Virus record (IMG/VR): IMGVR_UViG_3300042508_000154 | Span: 1 to 29,093 of that record | Length of the DNA: 29,093 nucleotides | DNA from: a virus | Strand: one strand, 5' to 3' | Part shown: piece by piece, positions 2,477-24,884 of the stretch | Layout of the letters: every line of letters starts with the position of its first letter | Numbering within the stretch: the stretch's first letter is position 1 | Notes under the pieces: model-generated | Told to the model about the DNA's origin: nothing | Databases searched by the model: none | Seen by the model: only the letters and a program-made list of their open reading frames with translations | Made by a program: the position numbers and the translations under genes

Positions 2477-3205
2477 ATGCCAATAGACTTTCCAAATAGC
2501 CCCTCATTAAATCAATTATTTACAAGTAGCCAGAACACTTGGATATGGGATGGCACAGCATGGACTCTACAAAGACTTACTACAGGTGCTACTGGTGCCA
2601 CAGGTGCAACAGGAGCCACTGGCGCAACAGGCGCCGACAGCACAATTGTTGGCCCAACAGGTGCAACAGGATCAACAGGCGCTACAGGTGCCACTGGCGC
2701 AACTGGCGCTAACAGCACAGTCGCAGGACCAACAGGCGCTACGGGCGCTACAGGTGCCACTGGCGCAACAGGCGCCGACAGCACAGTCCCAGGACCTACA
2801 GGCGCAACAGGCGCAACTGGCGCTAACAGCACAGTAGTAGGTCCAACAGGCGCTACGGGCGCTACAGGTGCCACTGGCGCAACAGGCGCCGACAGCACAG
2901 TCCCAGGACCTACAGGTCCCACAGGGGAAACTTTTCCTTCACAAACTGGTAACTCTGGAAAATTCTTAAGTACAAATGGTACTTCGACTTTATGGAATAC
3001 GGTTGCACAATATTCTTTACCAGCGCAGTCTGGAAACTCTGGAAAATTTCTAACTACAAATGGAACGGCAGAGTCATGGGCAACTGTAGCAACTACAGCA
3101 TATTCAAACGGAACTAATACAGCAAACTCAAATAAAATATTCTATAACACATCTGGAACGCCACCAACTGGCACTGCAGCTGGCGATTTATATATTTTCT
3201 ACTAG
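2477..3205 (+). CDS. Second collagen-like tail fibre protein
   Basis: 242 residues, with a good ribosome binding site (AGGAGAT, 2468-2474). Residues 1-36 form a short N-terminal module with [12 protein letters not shown], the same aromatic motif seen in the neighbouring fibres. Residues 37-150 are Gly-X-Thr repeats containing the [16 protein letters not shown] and STVVGPTG units of the first fibre. The tail holds two copies of a repeat with the core [13 protein letters not shown] followed by W and V (about 157-178 and 183-206), a motif common in phage fibre distal regions. It ends [11 protein letters not shown]. It may trimerise with, or form a shorter fibre beside, the 619-residue protein. 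A 114-bp tandem duplication lies in the collagen block. Confidence 0.85.
2585..2926 (+). repeat. Gly-X-Thr coding repeat block in the second fibre gene
   Basis: Residues 37-150 are almost entirely 9-bp Gly-X-Thr units, with A-N/D-STV punctuation shared with the first fibre gene. The shared units make recombination between the two genes likely. Confidence 0.88.
2708..2916 (+). repeat. Tandem direct repeat, 114-bp period
   Basis: Bases 2729-2802 and 2843-2916 are identical over 74 bp at an offset of 114 bp (38 codons, in frame). Each copy is preceded by a similar GCTAACAGCACAGT unit, at 2708 and 2822. This is a recent in-frame duplication in the collagen-like block. Confidence 0.9.
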
Positions 3206-7679: not shown

Positions 7680-9259
7680 CAGTAGAATTTCTCGGTGAAG
7701 ATAACTCAGAAAACATTATCGACATATCAAATACAGCGGATTGGTTTTCTTTTAAAAAGGATGAAAAAAACAACGACCCGTTTGCAATAGGCCTAGAAGA
7801 CATCAAAAAGCTTAGAGGTCTCGGGTCATCATTTAAGCGTAGAATTAATAGAGAGTTTTCTAAATCATTCTCAGGCATTGAAGATACTGGAACACAACAA
7901 AACCTATTGGCACAAGCAATTAGCGGATACGCTATGTTTGATCTTATTGAGCCTCCATACAACCAAGAGTATCTTTCAAAGATTTATGAAATTTCAACAT
8001 ATAACTATGCAGCAATTAATGCAAAGGTTGCCAATATTGTTGGCCTAGGTTATGACTTTATTGAAACAAAGAAAACAAATGATGCCTTTGATTCAATAAC
8101 AGATGACAAACAGCTTGAGAGGGCACGTAGAAAGCTAAATAAGCTTCGTCAAGATCTACACGCTTGGCTAGATACAACGAATACTGAAGATACATTTACA
8201 CAAACATTAATTAAGGTTTACACAGATCTTGAAGCAACAGGAAACGGTTACCTTGAAATAGGAAGAACAACAGGCGGAGACATTGGGTACATTGGGCATA
8301 TCCCAGCAAAGACAATGCGTGTTCGCAGACTTAGAGATGGCTTCATTCAGCTGCTGTATGGCAAGGCTGTATTCTTTAATAACTTCGGCGAGAATGAAAC
8401 AGAGAACCCAATCGCTGGTCAAGAAGATCGCCCAAATGAAATTATTCATTTTAAGAAGTACACACCAATGAATAACTATTATGGAATTCCAGACATCATT
8501 GCAGCACAGGTAGCCCTTGCTGGAAATGAATTATCTGGCCGTTACAATCTAGACTACTTTGAAAACAAAGCGGTCCCAAGATATATTATTACAGTTAAGG
8601 GAGCAAAGCTTTCTCCAGAGTCAGAAAGAAAATTGCTTGAATTTTTCCAAGTTGGATTAAAGGGAAAGAATCACAGATCCCTATATGTTCCACTTCCAGC
8701 AGATAGCCCAGACTCAAAAGTTGAATTTAAAATGGAGCCTATTGAAGCGGGTAATCAAGAAGGATCATTTGAGAAATATCGTAAATCAAATAGAGACGAA
8801 ATTCTACTTGCCCACCGTGTTCCAATTAATAAAATAGGAACTCCAGAGGGGGTTAATTTAGCGGTAGCCAGAGATGCTGATAAGACATTTAAAGAGCAGG
8901 TTTGCCGACCAGCTCAAATGACCCTGGAGAAAAAAATTAATGCAATATTTGATGAAAAAACAGATGCCTTGACTTTAAAGTTTAATGAATTAACTTTAAC
9001 TGATGAAGACACTCAATCTCAAATAGATGAAAGATATTTAAGAATGCAGGTAATTACTCCAAATGAAGTTAGAATTAGAAAAGGAATGATACCTGTTGAA
9101 GGCGGAGATAAAATGGTTGAATTAAAGCCCCAAGAGGCTGCTGATCAAAAAGCAACCGCTGGGAAAACCAGGGCCCGAGATTCCGAAAGATCCGCATCCT
9201 CCTCAGATAAAGTGGGAGAAGGCCGAAATGCCAAAGGCGAAGGAAGACGGGTCGACTAA
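7676..9259 (+). CDS. Portal protein
   Basis: 527 residues. Portals form the dodecameric ring at the capsid vertex through which DNA is packaged and ejected. Portal features visible in order: AAINAKVANIVGLGYDFI (about 113-130), a helical insert, TGNGYLEIGRTTGGDIGYIGHIPA (about 187-210), EIIHFKKYTPMNNYYGIPDI (about 254-273) and a clip/stem region with LSGRYNLDYFENKAVPRYII. The match is to PBSX/HK97-type portals. Residues 490-527 form a Ser/Arg/Gly-rich low-complexity tail ending KGEGRRVD, a kind of ending found in several portal families. The start ATG 7676 overlaps the preceding stop. Confidence 0.9.
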   Translation: MTVEFLGEDNSENIIDISNTADWFSFKKDEKNNDPFAIGLEDIKKLRGLGSSFKRRINREFSKSFSGIEDTGTQQNLLAQAISGYAMFDLIEPPYNQEYLSKIYEISTYNYAAINAKVANIVGLGYDFIETKKTNDAFDSITDDKQLERARRKLNKLRQDLHAWLDTTNTEDTFTQTLIKVYTDLEATGNGYLEIGRTTGGDIGYIGHIPAKTMRVRRLRDGFIQLLYGKAVFFNNFGENETENPIAGQEDRPNEIIHFKKYTPMNNYYGIPDIIAAQVALAGNELSGRYNLDYFENKAVPRYIITVKGAKLSPESERKLLEFFQVGLKGKNHRSLYVPLPADSPDSKVEFKMEPIEAGNQEGSFEKYRKSNRDEILLAHRVPINKIGTPEGVNLAVARDADKTFKEQVCRPAQMTLEKKINAIFDEKTDALTLKFNELTLTDEDTQSQIDERYLRMQVITPNEVRIRKGMIPVEGGDKMVELKPQEAADQKATAGKTRARDSERSASSSDKVGEGRNAKGEGRRVD

Positions 9260-16577: not shown

Positions 16578-19500
16578 ATGGCAGATAATTTAATCACCAC
16601 CAATATTACCGCCAACGCAGACTTCACGAGTTTAAGAACTCAGCTTGCTGCGGTTACTGCCCAACTCGTAAAATTACAAGAAACAACGGCGGGAACTAAC
16701 GCCAAACTAGCAAATCAAATTGCTGTAATGAATAAGTCCTTCGCAGAAACTATGCGATCAACGGGACAGTTTTCATCACACTTTGTATCGCTTACATCAG
16801 ACGTAGAAAAATTTGGTAGGAACCTAGATAGAGGAAGACTTAAACTAGGGGAATACTACAACGCCTGGAGTGGGCATACAAAGAAAACAAGCAGCCTGAT
16901 TAGAGACCTGGCCAAGCAGCAGGTAATGCTAGAGAATGCAATCATTCAGCCTATCGGCAAAAACGCACAAGGCCTAATGCAATACAATGTTATGGTTGCA
17001 AAGGGCCTTGATGAAATAAAGAACAAGACGGCAATTGCAAGACAAGAGCTATCTATCATGAATAAGGTAATGCTCGATGGATCTAATCAGCTTATCAATT
17101 GGGGTAAGAACACCCAGTGGGCTGGCCGTCAGTTAACAGTAGGACTAACAGTTCCTCTTGCAGCATTTGGAATGGCTGCACAAAAAGCATTTAGAGAAGC
17201 AGATCAAGAGCTTGTAAGACTTACAAAGGTTTACGGCGGACTAAGTGCAACATCATCTTCAGAGCTAGCAAAAGTAAGAAAAGATGTTTCCGAAACAGCA
17301 AGAGAAATTGCTGGAGCATACGGAATTGCATACAAAGAAACTATTGCATTAGCAGCTGACCTTGCTGCAACAGGACAAGAAGGCGGAAACCTTCTAGAAG
17401 CTACAAGACAGACAAGCAGACTTTCAATCCTTGGTGAAGTAGACAGACAAGAAGCAATGAAGGCAACTCTTGCTATTCAAAATGCATTTAAATCAAGTAC
17501 AGATGAATTAACTCAATCTATTGACTTTCTTAACGCTGTTGAAAACCAGACATCCACTTCTCTACAAGATTTAGTTGAAGCAATCCCTAAAGCAGGCCCT
17601 GTTGTAAAGTCTTTAGGTGGAGATGTAAAAGATTTAGCATTGTATTTAACTGCAATGAAAGAAGGCGGAGTAAACGCATCAGAAGGTGCTAACGCAATTA
17701 AGTCAGCAATGGCATCTCTTATCAACCCAACAAAGGTTGCAAAGGAAATGTTTTTTGGCTTTGGTATAGATATAGATAAGATTGTAACATCTAATGCGGG
17801 AAATTTAACTGAAACAATTACAGACCTTCAAGCAGCTTTAGACAGACTAGATCCACTAAGCAAGTCAAGAGCAATTGAACAGTTGTTTGGTAAGTTCCAG
17901 TATGCAAGAATGTCAGCCCTATTTGAAAACCTAGGTAAAGAAGGATCTCAAACTCTTCAGGTAATGGATTTAATGAAAGCAAGCGCTACAGATCTTGCAA
18001 ATATCTCTGCTCGAGAATTAACTATGATGACAGAGTCCGCTTCAGGACAATTTAAAAGAGCATGGGCTTCAGTCCAAGCAGACCTTGCTTCAGTAGGAGA
18101 ACAATTTTTAAGAATTAGCACAAAGGTTTTAAATGTAGTAGATGGGATCATTAAGTTTTTCCAAGGACTTCCAGGTCCAGTTAAAACATTCCTTAACGCT
18201 CTTGGTGGACTAACAGCATTTGCTGGACCACTAATTATGTTAACTGGTGTTATGGCCAACTTTATTGGTTATGTTACAAAGGGAATATTCTCTTTAAGAC
18301 AAATGGCTACAGGAGGACATGGGTTTAAGCTCCTTACTCCAGAAATATTAGCGGCAGATGCAGCAGCAAAAGGTCTTGCTACATCATTCTATTCAGATAC
18401 AGAAGCAACAGTTGTATTAACAAATGCAGTAAATACTCTTGCAGCATCATTTGATAATCTTCAGGTAGCAGCATCTACAGCGCAAGTTGCAGTGCAACCA
18501 AGCATCTCAACAGTTGCAGGCGGAGTAATTGCAGCGGGAACTCCAGGCGGAACGCCAAGATATGTTGATAAAAATAATCCATTAATTGGAGATTCATACT
18601 CAAGAGATATGTCTCACATGATTCCTGCTCAAACACAACAGGCGGGGACAATATTTGGAACAGTTCCAGGAGCAGGACCAGTAAACGTTAGAATTGGTAA
18701 AAACCCTCAAGCATATATGAACGCAGATCTTCCAAAGATTCCAGGTGTTACATCTGTAAACGGAACATCGACTGGTATAGTTGCTCAAGAGGCAGCAAAG
18801 TGGCATGCAATGACAGCGGCAATTGCAATGCAATCAGAAGCAGAACTTAAAGTATTAAAGGCAGAGGTAAATGCTACAGGAACAATTACATCAAGTCTAT
18901 CTAATTCTTATCAAGCCTTGCTTCCAGAATTTTCAGAAATTACAAGCATGGCTGCACAAGAAACTGCTTTAATCGTTAAGCAGCTACAGCAAAGCAAAAT
19001 AACAGCAGACGAAGCAAGAATAAAAGTAATTCAATTAAATGCAACAGTTGAAGCAATGCTTGCTGAGACAGCTCAAAAGATTGCAGCTGGACAAGGAAGA
19101 TCTGTAAACTTAACAACAGTTCCATTAACATCTCAACCTGTAGTAGACCCAGTAACTGGTAAATCAAATATGAAAGAAATGTTTCATAAGGGTTCTACAA
19201 AAACATTAGTAGATAAAATTGCTAGAGCGCTAGGCGGAGTTAGAACTTCAGGTGCAGGATATAACATTGAAACAACAAAGCCTAAGTTTAATAAAGGCGG
19301 AATAGTTCCAGGAACTGGTAACACAGACACCTATCATACAATGGCCGAGCCCGAATCATTTGTAATTAATAAAGCTGCAACACAAAGAAACATGCCTACA
19401 ATTAGCAAACTTATTGGTGGCACTCCAACATTTAGAAACACTGGAGGAATGGTTCCAGTAGTTTTAACTCCTGGAGAAGCAGTAATTCCAGCAAAAATTG

Positions 19501-22500
19501 CTAAGCGTAATCCAGAACTAATGTTGCAATTAAATGGTGGCCCAGGTAATACAACTGGTATGGGAAGACATCAAGGCGGAGGAGTTCACCCACACCCTCA
19601 TGCAGGAAAGCCTATGACAGATGCTCAATACAGAAGAGCTCTTAAAATGTATTATGAATTTATTAACGATCCAAACTATGAAGCCAATGTTCGTGCAAGA
19701 TTTATTGCACTAGATGCTTCAGAGTATTTGGGAGTTGCCCCACAGATAGGAACTAAAAAAGCTATTGAAATAGCTACTGCTAATTTTGATGCTGCTAAGG
19801 ACCTTAATGGATCTCCCGAAGACTGGATTAAAACTAGAACAGCACAGCTTGCTGCTTTTGACGAAAAATATTCTATGGGAGACAAAAGATTAGTAAAAGA
19901 AGGAAGAAGCGCAACGGCTTCTGGTTTAACTAGCGATAACTTTTTAAATAGAAATATGAACAGGGTTTTAAGATCAATGAGCAGAAACCCATTATTTGCA
20001 GAAGCTCATGAAGATTTAAAGTCAATACCTAGAGCAACTGGTAAAATACAAGGCGGCGGAGGAAGATTAGTTGAAACTGCTAGAGGCCACGCATTTAGAA
20101 GATCTTTAATAGCACAACTAGGTGGAGTTGGCTCAAGAGGATTTGCAGGATTTGCTGCTATTATGCCTGCAGCATTTAATACAATTGCTGCACAACTTCA
20201 GGGCAAAAATTTTCAACCAGATGTAATTCATTTAAAGAGGGCAAGTGCAATTGCTGACTTTGAAGAAATGGTAAGAAAATCTGGAGTCCCTGGAAGCGTA
20301 GACGATGTAATACAAGCATTACAGTATGATACAAGATTTGTAGCTGCATCAGACAAGAAACCACGAGTTGCTCCTCCATCACCAAAACAAAAAACTGCAC
20401 TCAACATGTTTTTGCAAGCAATCTCTGCAGGAAAAGCTTGGATTCCAATTCGTGGAAAACTTGCTCTTGCAGGAGCGGTTAAATTAAATAAGGGTGGACA
20501 AGTACCAGGAAAGTTTGCACAAAGATTGTTTGGCGGCGGTAAAGCGTTGTTCTTAGGAATGCCAAGATCTATTAAGCAGGTTGAAGCCCAGAGAGCCGCA
20601 AAGGTTGCTATGGAAAAAGCAAGTCAAGCAGTTAAAGACTCTAGATTTAGCAAGACCCCAGTAACTGATTATGACGCTATGCTAGAGCCAACATCAGGAA
20701 GAAGTTTCCCAGTATCTGGAATTGGTGGAGTTTATAGCAAGAACGGGGAAAAGGTTTTTGTTAAGCCAGTACTAGATGAAAAAGCAGCGCTTGCTGAGAT
20801 AAGAGCAACTGAAATTGCTCGTGATGTTCACGGACTACAAACACCTAATCAAAGAGTTGTTGTAATGAGAGACCCAACTGACAGAAGAGGATCTAGAACA
20901 CTACTAGCTTTAGAGTCTAAGTACAATCCTGCTATAGCAAATCAAGATGGTAAATTTACAGAAGATCAATACTTTAGACAGTTAGTTGCATCATCATTAC
21001 GTGGCGACAAAGATTTAGGCAGGGGTAACCTTTCTGGGAACATACTTGCCGATGTAGGTCCAGCTGGGGTATTTTCAACAGCCTCTGGACCAAGAGATTA
21101 TTCTGCAACAATGCCTTCATTTAAACAACAAGCAATGATCAACTTGCTTGGAGTAAAAGGAAGCAGTACAAAGAAATTCTTTGCTGAAGCAACTTCAGAT
21201 ATTCCAAGAGGTATGACACCTGATCAATACAATGATCGCATGCTGCAAGAAATTGAATCTGCTCTCCCAAAGCTAAAACAAACAATAGGTAGATTTGATT
21301 TAAACACAGAAGAAAAAGTTATTTACAATGCAATGATCACAAGACTATCTGATGCAAGAAGACAAACTTACAGAGATTTGCATGGAGTTCATTCATCAGT
21401 AACAATGTCTCCAGAAAAAACAATGACTCCAGCAGCAATTGCCAAAATGCTTGCAGCAGATGAATTGAAGCGCAGACAAAAGGGTCACTCTGTAAGCCTA
21501 TCTGATAATGCATTTAAGACACCAGAAAATGGATTCAATATTGGCGGATTAATTGGAAACGTTCTTAAGGGTAAAGCAATGCATAGAATTGGTGCAGGAT
21601 TTGGCCCAACTGGAGCACCTAAGCCAAGTATGTATGAGTCAGCTCCATGGGGCGTGAACTCTCTATCTATTGAAATGGCCGACAAGCTATTTGCAAACAC
21701 AGGTTTAAGAAAGCATACTCAAAAATTATTCTATGACAAGTTTGCGGCAGCACTAGCAAAAGAAAAACCTTACGGATATGTAAAGATGCCAGATGGTAAA
21801 TTAAAGAACGGACTCGAGCCAGACGTGCTAGACTCTGTAATAAGATCAGCCGCTTCAGATCTTGTTGGAGACAGAAACATAATTAAACAACTTTCTCCAA
21901 TTGATAAAGATATTTTGCGAAACAAATATTTAAATTGGGATTCTAAAAAAGATACTCCGCTTACAGAATCTTTAAAGAAAATTATATTTGGTTTAGAAAA
22001 AAGAGAAATGGGCGGACCAGTTAACGCAGGTCAACCATACGTTGTGGGAGAAAAAGGACCAGAGCTATTTGTACCTAGAAATTCAGGAGGCATTGTTCCA
22101 AACGGATACATGAAGGGCGGAAACATTGCAATGCTTGGAGCCTCACTAGCACCAATGCTAATTGCGAGCAAGATTACTAATCCTTTACTTCAAACAATAA
22201 TGCAGACGCTTTCATTTATCATACCTCAAATGATGATGACGGCAATGATGCAGACAAAAGCTGAAGGCGCACAAGGAAGAGTCGGTGGACTTATGTCTAA
22301 GATTCCAGCTTCTGCAAAAACTCCTATATTCTCTACAGCAAGAGGGACAAAAGTTGCTGGTGAAATGTTGGAAGATGGAACATACGCCAAGGGCGGAAGA
22401 ATGCTCAATAGATACGGCGCAGCTCTTCAGAATTCTGCCAAGAGCGGGAGCGCAGTAACAAGAACCCTGGGAAGAATTGGAATGGGTCTTACAAGATTAA

Positions 22501-24884
22501 ATGTAGGACTTGCTGTAGCAACAGGAGCTTTTATTCTTATCAATAAAAGAATAAGGGATCACAACGAACATTTAAGAGTTGGGGTAACACAATACGGACT
22601 AACAGAAGAAGCTGCCAAAAAGGCGGGACTTAAGTTTACTGATTACAACTCAAAGCTTGCAGATACTGTTAAAAACATAGAAGCAATACGAGAAAGAAAT
22701 CAGTTCCTTTATGAAAGCATGCAAGATGCTGGACTTCCTATATCCATGACAATTGAAGAGTATAAGAAGCTTAAGAAGGAAGTTAAGGAAGTATATACTG
22801 ATCAAATTAAATTAATTAATCAGTCTAAAGAAAGTGAACTTCCACAAGTAGCAATAGACATTAAGACTGCTCTAATGGCTGCTGGGTTATCAGCAGATGA
22901 AGCAAGCAAGAAGATATTTACAATGTTTAAGCTTTCTGAAAAGGGAGAAAAGGCTGGTGCATTTACTGTAGGTAATCGTGCATTTAGAAATATTAAAACA
23001 GGACAAGATGCAGCCGAGGCTGCAATAAACACTTATACTACTGCCTCAGATGGTAAAGAGAAAGCACAGGCAGTAAATACAGGTCTAACTGCTATCGATG
23101 CAGGAATCATTGATATGATTGAGCAAAGTAAAAAAGCTGCTAGAGAAGACAAGAGTGGAAATACAAAAGTATTAACTCAGTATCAAGCCCAAGAAGCAAT
23201 GCTTCAAAAACTAAATAAGCTAGAATCTTCTAAAGCTGTTCTTACTGCAAAAACTAGAGCGGAAATGATTAAGCAGAATCCAGAACTTAAAAAGATTATT
23301 AATCCTATGGATACAATAGTTAGCTTATTTGAAAAGATGAATCTTGCAGCAAAGGGATTTACTGGAGATCTTTCAAAGTTAGGCGCTGAGGCTGTATCTA
23401 CACTATCAAAAGTTGCAGATTCCATATCAGAAGCAACCGTTGCTGCGAACAAAGAGGGTCTATTAAAACAACAGTACATAGATTTAAAGAAGCTAACAGA
23501 TCAACAAAAGGCATTAATGCAAGCGGCCAAAGGACAAACTGCTCAGCAACAAATAAACACTAGAGAGCAGCTAAAGGGTTTGCAAAAGCAAATAGATGCT
23601 AATAATAAACTTGCAGAGTCAAGACTAAAAGCATTAGATGCAGCAAAGCAAGAGGGCGATATTGCAAGACAAATTGCAAAAGCACAAGCAGCATACGAAG
23701 CAGCTTTAGCAACAGGCAATACTGCTGCAGCACAACAAGCAAGCTTAGATATTCAAGGTCTGCAATCAGATCAGCAATACAACTCTCAAAAGAAAGCAAT
23801 TGAAGATGCTCTTAAGCTAGCCAATGCTCCTCTTGAGGCTAAGATAAAATTAATTAATGACGGACAACAAAAGATGTCAGACAATGCATCAATTGCTGCA
23901 GAAAAATTGGGCTCATTAAATGCAAGGATTGATAAGCAAAAACAAAAGATTGATGATGTTAATCAAGCAATGGTCACCTTAGCACTAAATGCAGCTGCTG
24001 CAGGAAAAAGTATAGAGGATTATATTAAGTTTGGAACTGATGAAGACCCAAATGCTGGTAGAGAGGCTGCTGCAGGCCTTGTTGGAGCAGTAAGAACAGC
24101 AAAGCCTGGAACAGTTCCTGAATTTAAACAACCAACTCATCCAAAGGGTGTTAAAACTCCAATTGATGTAGGTACCCAAGCCCTGGGAATAATGGGCGGG
24201 GTAGAAGGAGCTATTACAAAAGGATTAGCCTCAAAGGGTATTCAAATGGGCAGCGGAGATATTATTATTAATGGAAAGAAGATGGATGTTGGCCAATCAA
24301 ATGCTACTGCTAAGATTAGTTCTGTTCCTACAACTTTAGGCGTAACCGCTGGAGCCTATGCAGGATCTACAATTATTCATCCATCTACACTTATGGCAGC
24401 AGGAGCATCTCAAATATCTGATGGCAAACGAGGCTCTACTTGGGTTGGTGTTGAGTTTGTAGATAAAAATGGTAAAAAGTGGAAGGTAACTTCTGATGCA
24501 GGGAGAGCTGGTCTTAACGTTCAAGCAGTAAAAGCTGGTTACGGAACAATGAAGCTTAATCCAAATGTTCCTACTATTGTCGGAGACCGTGGACCAGAAA
24601 TGGCATTTGGCGGAATGGTTATTCCTAATATGGCTAAGGTACCATATGCTTCACCTAGATACGATATTAAGCAAGCAGCAAAAATGTTTGAACCAATGCG
24701 TGATTCAGGGGTAGGACAAGGTGTAATTAATTATACACAACATATTCATGCCTCTCCAGGAATGAATGAGGATCAATTAATAAGTAAAGCAAAGGTTGCA
24801 GCATATGAATTCTTGCAGGCCAATATAAAAACTAATGCTAAAATGAAGGGCAACCCAATGAATGTAGGTATTAAAAACACATGA
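16578..24884 (+). CDS. Tape measure protein with inserted domains
   Basis: 2768 residues, the largest gene here. The N-terminal part (about 170-600) matches the TP901-type tape measure core: TVGLTVPLAAFGMAAQKAF, a helical region with GEVDRQEAMKATLAIQNAFK, and a hydrophobic stretch at about 538-567 ending IGYVTKGIF. From about 900 the protein is modular. Gly-Gly linkers with PG-rich motifs (KGGIVPGTGNTDTY at 906, KGGQVPG at 1305, IGG at 1655, MGG at 1811 with VVGEKGPELFVPRN) separate globular segments at about 1012-1300, 1335-1640 (kinase-like) and 1670-1805. Hydrophobic helices lie at about 1849-1891 and 1970-1993. A long coiled coil covers about 2315-2480, and the end has IVGDRGPEMAFGG and YTQHIHASPGMNEDQ. 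If the usual ratio of about 1.5 angstrom per residue applied to all of it, the tail would be about 415 nm; inserts may not count. No good ribosome binding site precedes ATG 16578; a TAACAT lies 6 nt upstream. Confidence 0.92.
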   Translation: MADNLITTNITANADFTSLRTQLAAVTAQLVKLQETTAGTNAKLANQIAVMNKSFAETMRSTGQFSSHFVSLTSDVEKFGRNLDRGRLKLGEYYNAWSGHTKKTSSLIRDLAKQQVMLENAIIQPIGKNAQGLMQYNVMVAKGLDEIKNKTAIARQELSIMNKVMLDGSNQLINWGKNTQWAGRQLTVGLTVPLAAFGMAAQKAFREADQELVRLTKVYGGLSATSSSELAKVRKDVSETAREIAGAYGIAYKETIALAADLAATGQEGGNLLEATRQTSRLSILGEVDRQEAMKATLAIQNAFKSSTDELTQSIDFLNAVENQTSTSLQDLVEAIPKAGPVVKSLGGDVKDLALYLTAMKEGGVNASEGANAIKSAMASLINPTKVAKEMFFGFGIDIDKIVTSNAGNLTETITDLQAALDRLDPLSKSRAIEQLFGKFQYARMSALFENLGKEGSQTLQVMDLMKASATDLANISARELTMMTESASGQFKRAWASVQADLASVGEQFLRISTKVLNVVDGIIKFFQGLPGPVKTFLNALGGLTAFAGPLIMLTGVMANFIGYVTKGIFSLRQMATGGHGFKLLTPEILAADAAAKGLATSFYSDTEATVVLTNAVNTLAASFDNLQVAASTAQVAVQPSISTVAGGVIAAGTPGGTPRYVDKNNPLIGDSYSRDMSHMIPAQTQQAGTIFGTVPGAGPVNVRIGKNPQAYMNADLPKIPGVTSVNGTSTGIVAQEAAKWHAMTAAIAMQSEAELKVLKAEVNATGTITSSLSNSYQALLPEFSEITSMAAQETALIVKQLQQSKITADEARIKVIQLNATVEAMLAETAQKIAAGQGRSVNLTTVPLTSQPVVDPVTGKSNMKEMFHKGSTKTLVDKIARALGGVRTSGAGYNIETTKPKFNKGGIVPGTGNTDTYHTMAEPESFVINKAATQRNMPTISKLIGGTPTFRNTGGMVPVVLTPGEAVIPAKIAKRNPELMLQLNGGPGNTTGMGRHQGGGVHPHPHAGKPMTDAQYRRALKMYYEFINDPNYEANVRARFIALDASEYLGVAPQIGTKKAIEIATANFDAAKDLNGSPEDWIKTRTAQLAAFDEKYSMGDKRLVKEGRSATASGLTSDNFLNRNMNRVLRSMSRNPLFAEAHEDLKSIPRATGKIQGGGGRLVETARGHAFRRSLIAQLGGVGSRGFAGFAAIMPAAFNTIAAQLQGKNFQPDVIHLKRASAIADFEEMVRKSGVPGSVDDVIQALQYDTRFVAASDKKPRVAPPSPKQKTALNMFLQAISAGKAWIPIRGKLALAGAVKLNKGGQVPGKFAQRLFGGGKALFLGMPRSIKQVEAQRAAKVAMEKASQAVKDSRFSKTPVTDYDAMLEPTSGRSFPVSGIGGVYSKNGEKVFVKPVLDEKAALAEIRATEIARDVHGLQTPNQRVVVMRDPTDRRGSRTLLALESKYNPAIANQDGKFTEDQYFRQLVASSLRGDKDLGRGNLSGNILADVGPAGVFSTASGPRDYSATMPSFKQQAMINLLGVKGSSTKKFFAEATSDIPRGMTPDQYNDRMLQEIESALPKLKQTIGRFDLNTEEKVIYNAMITRLSDARRQTYRDLHGVHSSVTMSPEKTMTPAAIAKMLAADELKRRQKGHSVSLSDNAFKTPENGFNIGGLIGNVLKGKAMHRIGAGFGPTGAPKPSMYESAPWGVNSLSIEMADKLFANTGLRKHTQKLFYDKFAAALAKEKPYGYVKMPDGKLKNGLEPDVLDSVIRSAASDLVGDRNIIKQLSPIDKDILRNKYLNWDSKKDTPLTESLKKIIFGLEKREMGGPVNAGQPYVVGEKGPELFVPRNSGGIVPNGYMKGGNIAMLGASLAPMLIASKITNPLLQTIMQTLSFIIPQMMMTAMMQTKAEGAQGRVGGLMSKIPASAKTPIFSTARGTKVAGEMLEDGTYAKGGRMLNRYGAALQNSAKSGSAVTRTLGRIGMGLTRLNVGLAVATGAFILINKRIRDHNEHLRVGVTQYGLTEEAAKKAGLKFTDYNSKLADTVKNIEAIRERNQFLYESMQDAGLPISMTIEEYKKLKKEVKEVYTDQIKLINQSKESELPQVAIDIKTALMAAGLSADEASKKIFTMFKLSEKGEKAGAFTVGNRAFRNIKTGQDAAEAAINTYTTASDGKEKAQAVNTGLTAIDAGIIDMIEQSKKAAREDKSGNTKVLTQYQAQEAMLQKLNKLESSKAVLTAKTRAEMIKQNPELKKIINPMDTIVSLFEKMNLAAKGFTGDLSKLGAEAVSTLSKVADSISEATVAANKEGLLKQQYIDLKKLTDQQKALMQAAKGQTAQQQINTREQLKGLQKQIDANNKLAESRLKALDAAKQEGDIARQIAKAQAAYEAALATGNTAAAQQASLDIQGLQSDQQYNSQKKAIEDALKLANAPLEAKIKLINDGQQKMSDNASIAAEKLGSLNARIDKQKQKIDDVNQAMVTLALNAAAAGKSIEDYIKFGTDEDPNAGREAAAGLVGAVRTAKPGTVPEFKQPTHPKGVKTPIDVGTQALGIMGGVEGAITKGLASKGIQMGSGDIIINGKKMDVGQSNATAKISSVPTTLGVTAGAYAGSTIIHPSTLMAAGASQISDGKRGSTWVGVEFVDKNGKKWKVTSDAGRAGLNVQAVKAGYGTMKLNPNVPTIVGDRGPEMAFGGMVIPNMAKVPYASPRYDIKQAAKMFEPMRDSGVGQGVINYTQHIHASPGMNEDQLISKAKVAAYEFLQANIKTNAKMKGNPMNVGIKNT
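20580..21497 (+). other. Kinase-like segment inside the tape measure protein
   Basis: Residues about 1335-1640 of the tape measure. Motifs in order: GIGGVYSKNGEKVFVKP with candidate ATP-binding Lys1396; ALAEIRATEIARD with Glu1407 or Glu1412 in the next helix; a hinge-like LLALESKYN; and RGDKDLGRGNLSGNILAD, where Asp1479-x4-Asn1484-Leu resembles the D-R-x-x-G-N-I/L catalytic loop of PI3/4-kinase and HipA-like folds. The metal-binding Asp is unclear (Asp1492 in DVG is close, Asp1507 further on). The segment is bounded by Gly-Gly linkers. This is motif reading by eye; a structure prediction would decide. Confidence 0.45.

Follow-up and report, generated by a model that had tools for sequence, protein, structure and literature searches.

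Established roles of tail tape-measure proteins are to set tail length, to form part of the DNA channel and to carry cell-wall hydrolases. In mycobacteriophage TM4, Tmp (mt3) carries a muralytic motif, an enzymatic insert which, according to the parts of PMC1796659 drawn on here, is dispensable for viability and helps infection; T5 and phiIPLA35 are likewise named for muralytic tape measures in PMC6116005. Here we analyse IMG/VR virus record IMGVR_UViG_3300042508_000154 (positions 1 to 29,093), a stretch of 29,093 nucleotides referred to below as the window, whose tape-measure gene encodes a kinase-like domain. The analysis confirms that this domain is real and supports the kinase reading of an original prediction made from the letters of the window. 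Enzymatic inserts for peptidoglycan hydrolysis are known from phage tape measures, and what appears to be new is an insert with a predicted kinase fold. Its presence in the tape measures of one group of bacterial viruses suggests a chemical tool delivered with the viral DNA. Whereas muralytic tape measures cut peptidoglycan, a kinase needs ATP and would naturally act on the cytoplasmic side.

The nearest published concept that we found is that of polyvalent proteins, which occur in phages and conjugative elements and include a kinase family, Kinase-PolyVal (PMC5512222). The two systems are alike in placing a kinase within a large phage protein, presumed to be packaged and then transferred to the host. 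In the passages of that source used here, Kinase-PolyVal has lost its C-terminal subdomain and has a conserved phosphotransfer histidine, whereas a C-lobe is modelled for the tape-measure domain and its catalytic loop has no histidine. The main text of that paper does not contain the term tape measure.

Other packaged effectors offer partial parallels. Tape-measure-like effectors of actinobacterial contractile injection systems bear diverse functional domains (PMC13277306), and the Sle1 type resembles the present case in that a protein related to tape measures bears a variable functional domain and is packaged in a tail-like machine. These are, however, bacterial contractile injection particles and not phages, and the word kinase does not occur in PMC13277306. 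T4 Alt is an ADP-ribosyltransferase that is packaged in the head and injected, and in MuF-VIP2 fusions a VIP2-like domain is joined to a head protein (both as described in parts of PMC5512222 and PMC7302621); these are head proteins, and their chemistry is unlike that of a kinase. In the phage described in PMC6293099, as far as the portion used here goes, a HipB-like antitoxin and the tape measure lie in separate open reading frames (ORFs). In the open-licence literature, searched without bioRxiv preprints, no report of a phage tape measure with a kinase in it was found, so this absence carries little weight.

Predicted fold and active site of the domain

The domain as modelled spans residues 1324-1623 of the tape-measure protein (20547..21446; all coordinates are those of the window and all features lie on the + strand). 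An AlphaFold2 model of this segment, built from 26 aligned sequences, reached a pLDDT of 84.7 and a pTM of 0.83; model residue n corresponds to tape-measure residue 1323+n. In the model, a helix (1332-1353) precedes a folded core at about 1367-1606. The core contains strands 1384-1388 and 1391-1398, helix 1401-1418 and strands 1426-1431 and 1441-1448. These are followed by helix 1462-1475, the catalytic loop, a very short hairpin and the putative metal site, beyond which lie helices 1515-1524, 1548-1571, 1577-1593 and 1599-1606. The original prediction had given the domain a span of about 1335-1640; the folded core is now narrower.

The model was compared by VIA-align with the 1000 best PDB chains from Foldseek, and all of the 50 rows listed are kinase-fold, most of them by title. 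The best row was CotH (5jda, Z 11.6 over 214 residues, 3.9 Å), with CtkA (Z 10.6, 200 residues, 4.3 Å), PI4KII alpha (Z 9.6, 211 residues, 4.7 Å) and MavQ (Z 9.2, 215 residues, 4.7 Å) below it, then VPS34 (up to 8.7), HipS-HipT (8.6), HipA (8.5), the FAM20 row 4kqa, a Golgi casein kinase (8.3), and actin-fragmin kinase (8.2). One entry titled ‘MDT protein’ we take to be HipA. LepB, also among the rows, is termed a kinase in the part of PMC9758233 seen here. The original prediction had named PI3/4-kinase-like and HipA-like folds as the nearest and had proposed a comparison with these and with FAM20-type kinases; both of the former are among the best structural rows, and the FAM20-type row is present too. 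Foldseek against the PDB also listed kinases, with CtkA the best (E-value 2.2e-3, probability 0.97). Against a viral library, four rows reached E 0.001, one of them (E 4.6e-4) a ‘Phosphatidylinositol 3-/4-kinase, catalytic domain containing protein’ of an uncultured tailed phage.

A replicate AlphaFold2 model was led by L280, a homologue with 25% identity, and gave a pLDDT of 81.9 and a pTM of 0.79; its alignment overlaps in membership with that of the first model. Its best VIA-align rows were CtkA (Z 10.6) and HipA (Z 10.5); the remaining listed rows are kinase-fold, a few inhibitor-titled entries presumably being kinase-fold structures as well, and its best Foldseek match in the PDB was ALK2 kinase (E 1.1e-3). 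Models of two members of the family therefore align to two-lobed kinase structures, with Z up to 11.6 and 10.6, respectively, and the likeness to HipA, HipT and CtkA lies at Z 8.5-10.6 for the first and, for HipA and CtkA, at 10.5-10.6 for the second. Because these two confident models agree, the lists of matches are uniformly kinases and the key residues are invariant, the model-based assignment to the kinase fold is strong.

Conservation was assessed across homologues retrieved by a domain-profile search over the ORFs of fetched loci and the window. This search gave 291 ORF hits, which include some contigs more than once and are not independent; they represent 115 distinct sequences, of which 114 were used, one of fewer than 230 residues being left out. 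The L041 row was left out of the first alignment set, as its coordinates came from a second, spurious match. Across the 114 sequences, with identity down to 25%, 22 positions are invariant: G1374, G1384, K1396, A1404, E1407, P1423, F1460, Q1468, R1475, D1477, D1479, L1480, N1484, D1492, G1494, V1498, S1503, G1504, N1522, F1535, T1539 and R1589. Judged from sequence, they include a kinase active site in the correct order. The presumed strand-3 lysine, Lys1396 in VFVKP (20763..20765), lies in model strand 1391-1398, and Glu1407 (20796..20798), its presumed salt-bridge partner, in model helix 1401-1418. Glu1446 (20913..20915), conserved in 112 of the 114, stands in the sequence LES at the end of strand 1441-1448, before the presumed hinge. 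The catalytic loop D1477-K-D1479-L-G-R-G-N1484 (21006..21029) follows model helix 1462-1475, with D1477, D1479, L1480 and N1484 each found in 114/114. The lysine, the helix glutamate, the catalytic Asp and Asn and the metal Asp thus fall in the expected order and in the expected elements of the model. Since L280, the most distant member, retains the active-site residues, a chance origin of the motifs is spoken against.

These results bear directly on the residues named by the original prediction. Lys1396 in VFVKP and Asp1479/Asn1484 in D-L-G-R-G-N are where it had put them, and all three, on whose conservation it had staked itself, are invariant; the other outcome that would have refuted it, a confident model lacking kinase lobes, did not occur either. 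It had offered either Glu1407 or Glu1412 as the helix glutamate; the former stands, and Glu1412 was rejected (Glu in 34/114). The metal-binding residue, only weakly identified before, is now most likely Asp1492 in the DFG-like motif Asp1492-Val-Gly1494 (21051..21059), because both its Asp and its Gly occur in all 114 sequences and the other candidate, Asp1507, was rejected at 64/114.

Atypical kinases of the HipA/CtkA, PI3/PI4-kinase, CotH and FAM20 kinds have in common with this domain a predicted two-lobed fold and the order Lys, helix Glu, hinge, Asp-x4-Asn loop and metal Asp. The tape-measure domain differs from them in having no HipA_C, PI3_PI4_kinase or CotH profile match and no PDB sequence match, in its loop RGDKDLxxxN with a D-x-G 8 residues after the Asn, and in being embedded in a tail protein.

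Distribution of the domain among tape measures

Scans of viral contigs returned 23 relatives from 36 matched stretches, 85 from 174, 184 from 257 and 244 from 326; the scans overlap, and each kept the best 80 relatives at most. The domain is tied to the tape measure: for 281 of the 291 ORF hits a single ORF encodes both it and the tape-measure N-terminus, and 7 others are open at their 5' edge. PhageMin_Tail was present in all 15 kinase-bearing tape measures scanned. A protein search with the kinase region found no relatives among named phage records; the six matches at E 4-9, all to Rhizobium phage entries with the annotation single-stranded DNA-binding protein, were taken as chance. A search of one genome per prokaryote species gave 187 stretches that fitted a pattern, none of them a relative.

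To the N-terminus of the tape measure, a separate scan found at least 593 relatives among 600 matched stretches, of which the best 80 were kept. Closed tape-measure ORFs in this set carried the kinase in 25 of 59 cases and were without it in 34; among open-ended ORFs, which stand outside that count, the figures were 5 and 16 of 21. The rate of 25/59 is probably biased, because the query was built solely from kinase-bearing tape measures (10/10) and the set was limited to the 80 best of at least 593 relatives. Median length was 2950.5 residues with the kinase (n=24) and 2560.5 without (n=32), ORFs of 2000 residues or fewer (1 with, 2 without) being left out of the comparison; subtracting the kinase lowers the first figure to 2660, closer to that of the tape measures without it.

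Linker motifs lie on both sides of the domain. In the window they read GGMVPVVLTPGEAVIPA upstream (residues 956-972, 19443..19493) and GGPVNAGQPYVVGEKGPELFVP downstream (residues 1812-1833, 22011..22076). Counting distinct copies with enough flank, an LTPGEFV-type linker occurs within 450 residues upstream in 70 of 95 (27% under random placement), and an LTPGEFV- or GEKGPELF-type linker within 450 residues downstream in 58 of 95 (random 23%). With patchy presence, longer kinase-bearing tape measures and linker motifs nearby, the kinase resembles an optional insertion, one that lengthens the tape measure and leaves its ruler in place. In distant tape measures, such as those of L083, L086 and L097, blastp aligns the window protein over no more than its N-terminal part and the kinase. 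The ratio of non-synonymous to synonymous substitution (dN/dS; NG86, 7 comparisons) was 0.09-0.27 for the kinase segment, similar to the 0.08-0.21 of the N-terminal 620 residues; the values are rough because dS often exceeds 1, and by this sequence-based measure they show purifying selection on the kinase segment.

Proposed function and competing explanations

We consider it likely that the optional cassette is a competent phosphotransferase of the protein-kinase-like superfamily, from the atypical branch that holds HipA/CtkA, PI3/4-kinase, CotH and FAM20, and that it is delivered into the host by way of the tape measure. We infer catalysis, substrate, passage through the tail and refolding in the host, and the idea that an active enzyme enters together with the DNA and has a target in the host draws, by analogy, on knowledge of tape measures. 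These proteins leave the tail before the DNA and enter the envelope (ejection and envelope insertion are described in parts of PMC6116005 and PMC13277306), so the domain would most likely arrive in the envelope or cytoplasm of a new host as soon as infection begins. There, Lys1396 and Glu1407 would hold ATP, Asp1479 would serve as catalytic base, and Asn1484 and Asp1492 would bind the metal. A kinase requires ATP, so it would act in the cytoplasm or on the inner side of the membrane, and a cytoplasmic target is most likely. The enzyme may phosphorylate, or less likely AMPylate, a host protein or lipid, and this modification could ease DNA entry or disarm or reprogram the host. If true, this would extend the role of tape measures from breaching the wall to chemical reprogramming of the host before phage genes are expressed, and the few residues named here offer a way to test whether an enzyme is able to traverse a phage tail and fold again.

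Several observations weigh against this reading. No kinase profile matched in Pfam, searched with the whole tape measure and with domain members, or in PHROGs; the domain had no NCBIfam match, a PDB sequence search found no relative of it, and hhalign against E. coli HipA gave nothing. HipA_C (PF07804) matched neither in the window record nor among the families listed for 26 members. PI3_PI4_kinase (PF00454) had no match in the window up to E 10 and none in the 26 members, in a search whose controls gave a match in one control genome only, below the cut-off. Up to E 10 the window also had no match to CotH (PF08757), with 3 of 14 controls over the cut-off, or to Kinase-PolyVal (PF18762), with control matches in two genomes only, below the cut-off. 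In the structural comparisons, no Foldseek row against the PDB reached E 0.001 for either model, and the VIA-align Z scores rise only moderately above 7-8, the range that the tool's guidance describes as usual for the best row when a model has no clear match.

The genomic evidence adds further points on this side. Since 34 of 59 closed tape measures do without it, the domain is dispensable for the tape-measure role, and kinase-bearing tape measures from which the kinase is subtracted (median 2660) are still somewhat longer than the others (p 0.015). In the remaining 3 of the 291 hits (L074, L136 and L253, one contig), the kinase lies in a separate ORF of 389 residues, which is open at the contig end and in another frame overlaps the last part of the ORF that encodes the tape-measure N-terminus (L074, about 7884-7920). 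In L322, a closed tape-measure ORF (from 5303) terminates inside the kinase. Each of the two interruptions may reflect a frameshift, a sequence fault or a real split. The weakest step of the proposal is physical: a folded domain of 30 kDa is wider than the lumen of a siphophage tail, so it would have to unfold and refold, or be released by cutting.

Filing the domain under HipA, PI3/4-kinase, CotH or Kinase-PolyVal was rejected, as profile matches are absent. Other weak sequence matches fared no better: a PDB search by profile gave five matches (E 0.086-1.2), none a kinase and all taken as chance, and Pfam on the 26 members listed 14 families, the best at E 0.0098 and none a kinase.

Among the alternatives, it is unlikely that the domain is a kinase-fold enzyme of another kind, namely a SelO-like AMPylase or a lipid or PI4-kinase-like enzyme at the membrane, a view that partly overlaps with our own. 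A tape measure operates at the membrane, and PI4KII, MavQ and VPS34 are all among the structural rows; CotH and CtkA nevertheless score above the lipid kinases, as do CtkA and HipA for the L280 model, and the fold does not reveal the substrate class. A little less probable is an active kinase that does its work not in the next host but earlier, in the infected cell that makes the phage or while tails are assembled; its targets could be tail proteins, the kinase itself or host molecules late in infection. Its place in a structural gene amid head and tail genes fits such a role, as does the poor passage expected of a folded kinase through a tail tube. The domain is, however, fused to an ejected tail protein in nearly all ORF hits, and its position in mid-protein near linker motifs resembles that of carried cargo.

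We regard as improbable that the kinase fold has turned into a structural or binding module of the tape measure, a pseudokinase making, for example, membrane or chaperone contacts. Such a role would suit a structural protein, and no kinase profile recognises the domain; pseudokinases, however, usually lose catalytic residues, whereas here the catalytic set is invariant while other positions, such as Asp1507, vary. Finally, chance resemblance or a mispredicted fold with no kinase kinship, for which the silent sequence profiles and the Foldseek PDB E-values above 0.001 might speak, is very improbable given two confident models, each with 50 listed VIA-align rows of kinase fold, and an ordered active site that persists down to 25% identity.

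The tape-measure gene, its flanking stretches and other inserts

The gene that carries the domain encodes a tail tape-measure protein of 2768 residues (16578..24884) and is the longest ORF of the window. Its PhageMin_Tail core covers residues 239-438 (17292..17891; PF10145, E 1e-26), and a PHROGs search matched residues 39-849 to phrog_10030, tail length tape measure (E 3.3e-116). Eight of the 9 other window ORFs scanned have PHROGs matches, with portal, head maturation protease, virion structural and tail-fibre proteins among the families, and the gene therefore sits in a structural block. PhageMin_Tail core, length and structural neighbours together identify it as a tape measure. In a 19-residue Kyte-Doolittle scan, only residues 541-563 (18198..18266) exceeded a hydropathy of 1.6, weakly, with a maximum of 1.69.

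A protein search with the N-terminal 1141 residues matched 501 named phage records, most commonly of Streptomyces phages (127) and then Gordonia phages (105), and the best among the listed matches have about 31-34% identity. The tape measure of L004, a contig of 104,426 bases, is identical to that of the window, which therefore probably belongs to a phage genome no shorter than 104 kb.

The stretches on either side of the kinase differ in character. Upstream, residues 1073-1323 (19794..20546) form a variable stretch that blastp from the window protein leaves uncovered in many of 88 relatives, as if swapped; where aligned, its dN/dS is 0.26-0.73 (same method and number of comparisons), unlike that of the kinase segment, and it has no Pfam match. 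Downstream, residues 1651-1800 (21528..21977) form a conserved module without a convincing family match. It is present in 199 of 261 kinase-holding ORF copies, some of the other 62 being cut by a contig or locus end, and is missing from L178 and L181 with the flanks intact. Residues 1611-1850, with a dN/dS of 0.085-0.153 over the same 7 comparisons, are among the most conserved parts of the tape measure.

Beyond the kinase, a broader but tentative proposal is that the tape measures of this large phage group may be general carriers of intracellular effectors, with exchangeable enzymes held in bays bounded by linkers; the present kinase would be one of these, and an unrelated kinase-like stretch in L016, described below, another. 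If this were true, the tail would deliver signalling enzymes ahead of the DNA, as secretion systems deliver effectors. Pfam, run on 18 of the 34 closed kinase-less tape measures, showed no enzyme family in any of them; their matches were PhageMin_Tail (18), LysM (2), glycine-zipper families, YggL_50S_bp (2) and DUF6861 (1).

Two tape measures contain other inserts. In L011 (ORF from 5530), the C-terminal insert reads KGVRG ... YFSTN ... EFPQ at residues about 2880-2990, a pattern that by eye we take to be ADP-ribosyltransferase-like, and it has no Pfam or NCBIfam match. The tape measure of L016 (ORF from 6185, 4157 residues) has an OmpA domain at residues 2697-2790 (E 1.7e-18) and, at 3127-3167, a second kinase-like stretch reading HGDMHPGN...FDWG, with weak Pfam matches to ABC1 (E 0.0028) and APH (E 0.0044) that lie below the curated cut-offs. 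Blastp matches in L237, L245, L254 and L233 span this second stretch as well. Its presence in L016 is a hint that enzymes of more than one type may occur in these tape measures.

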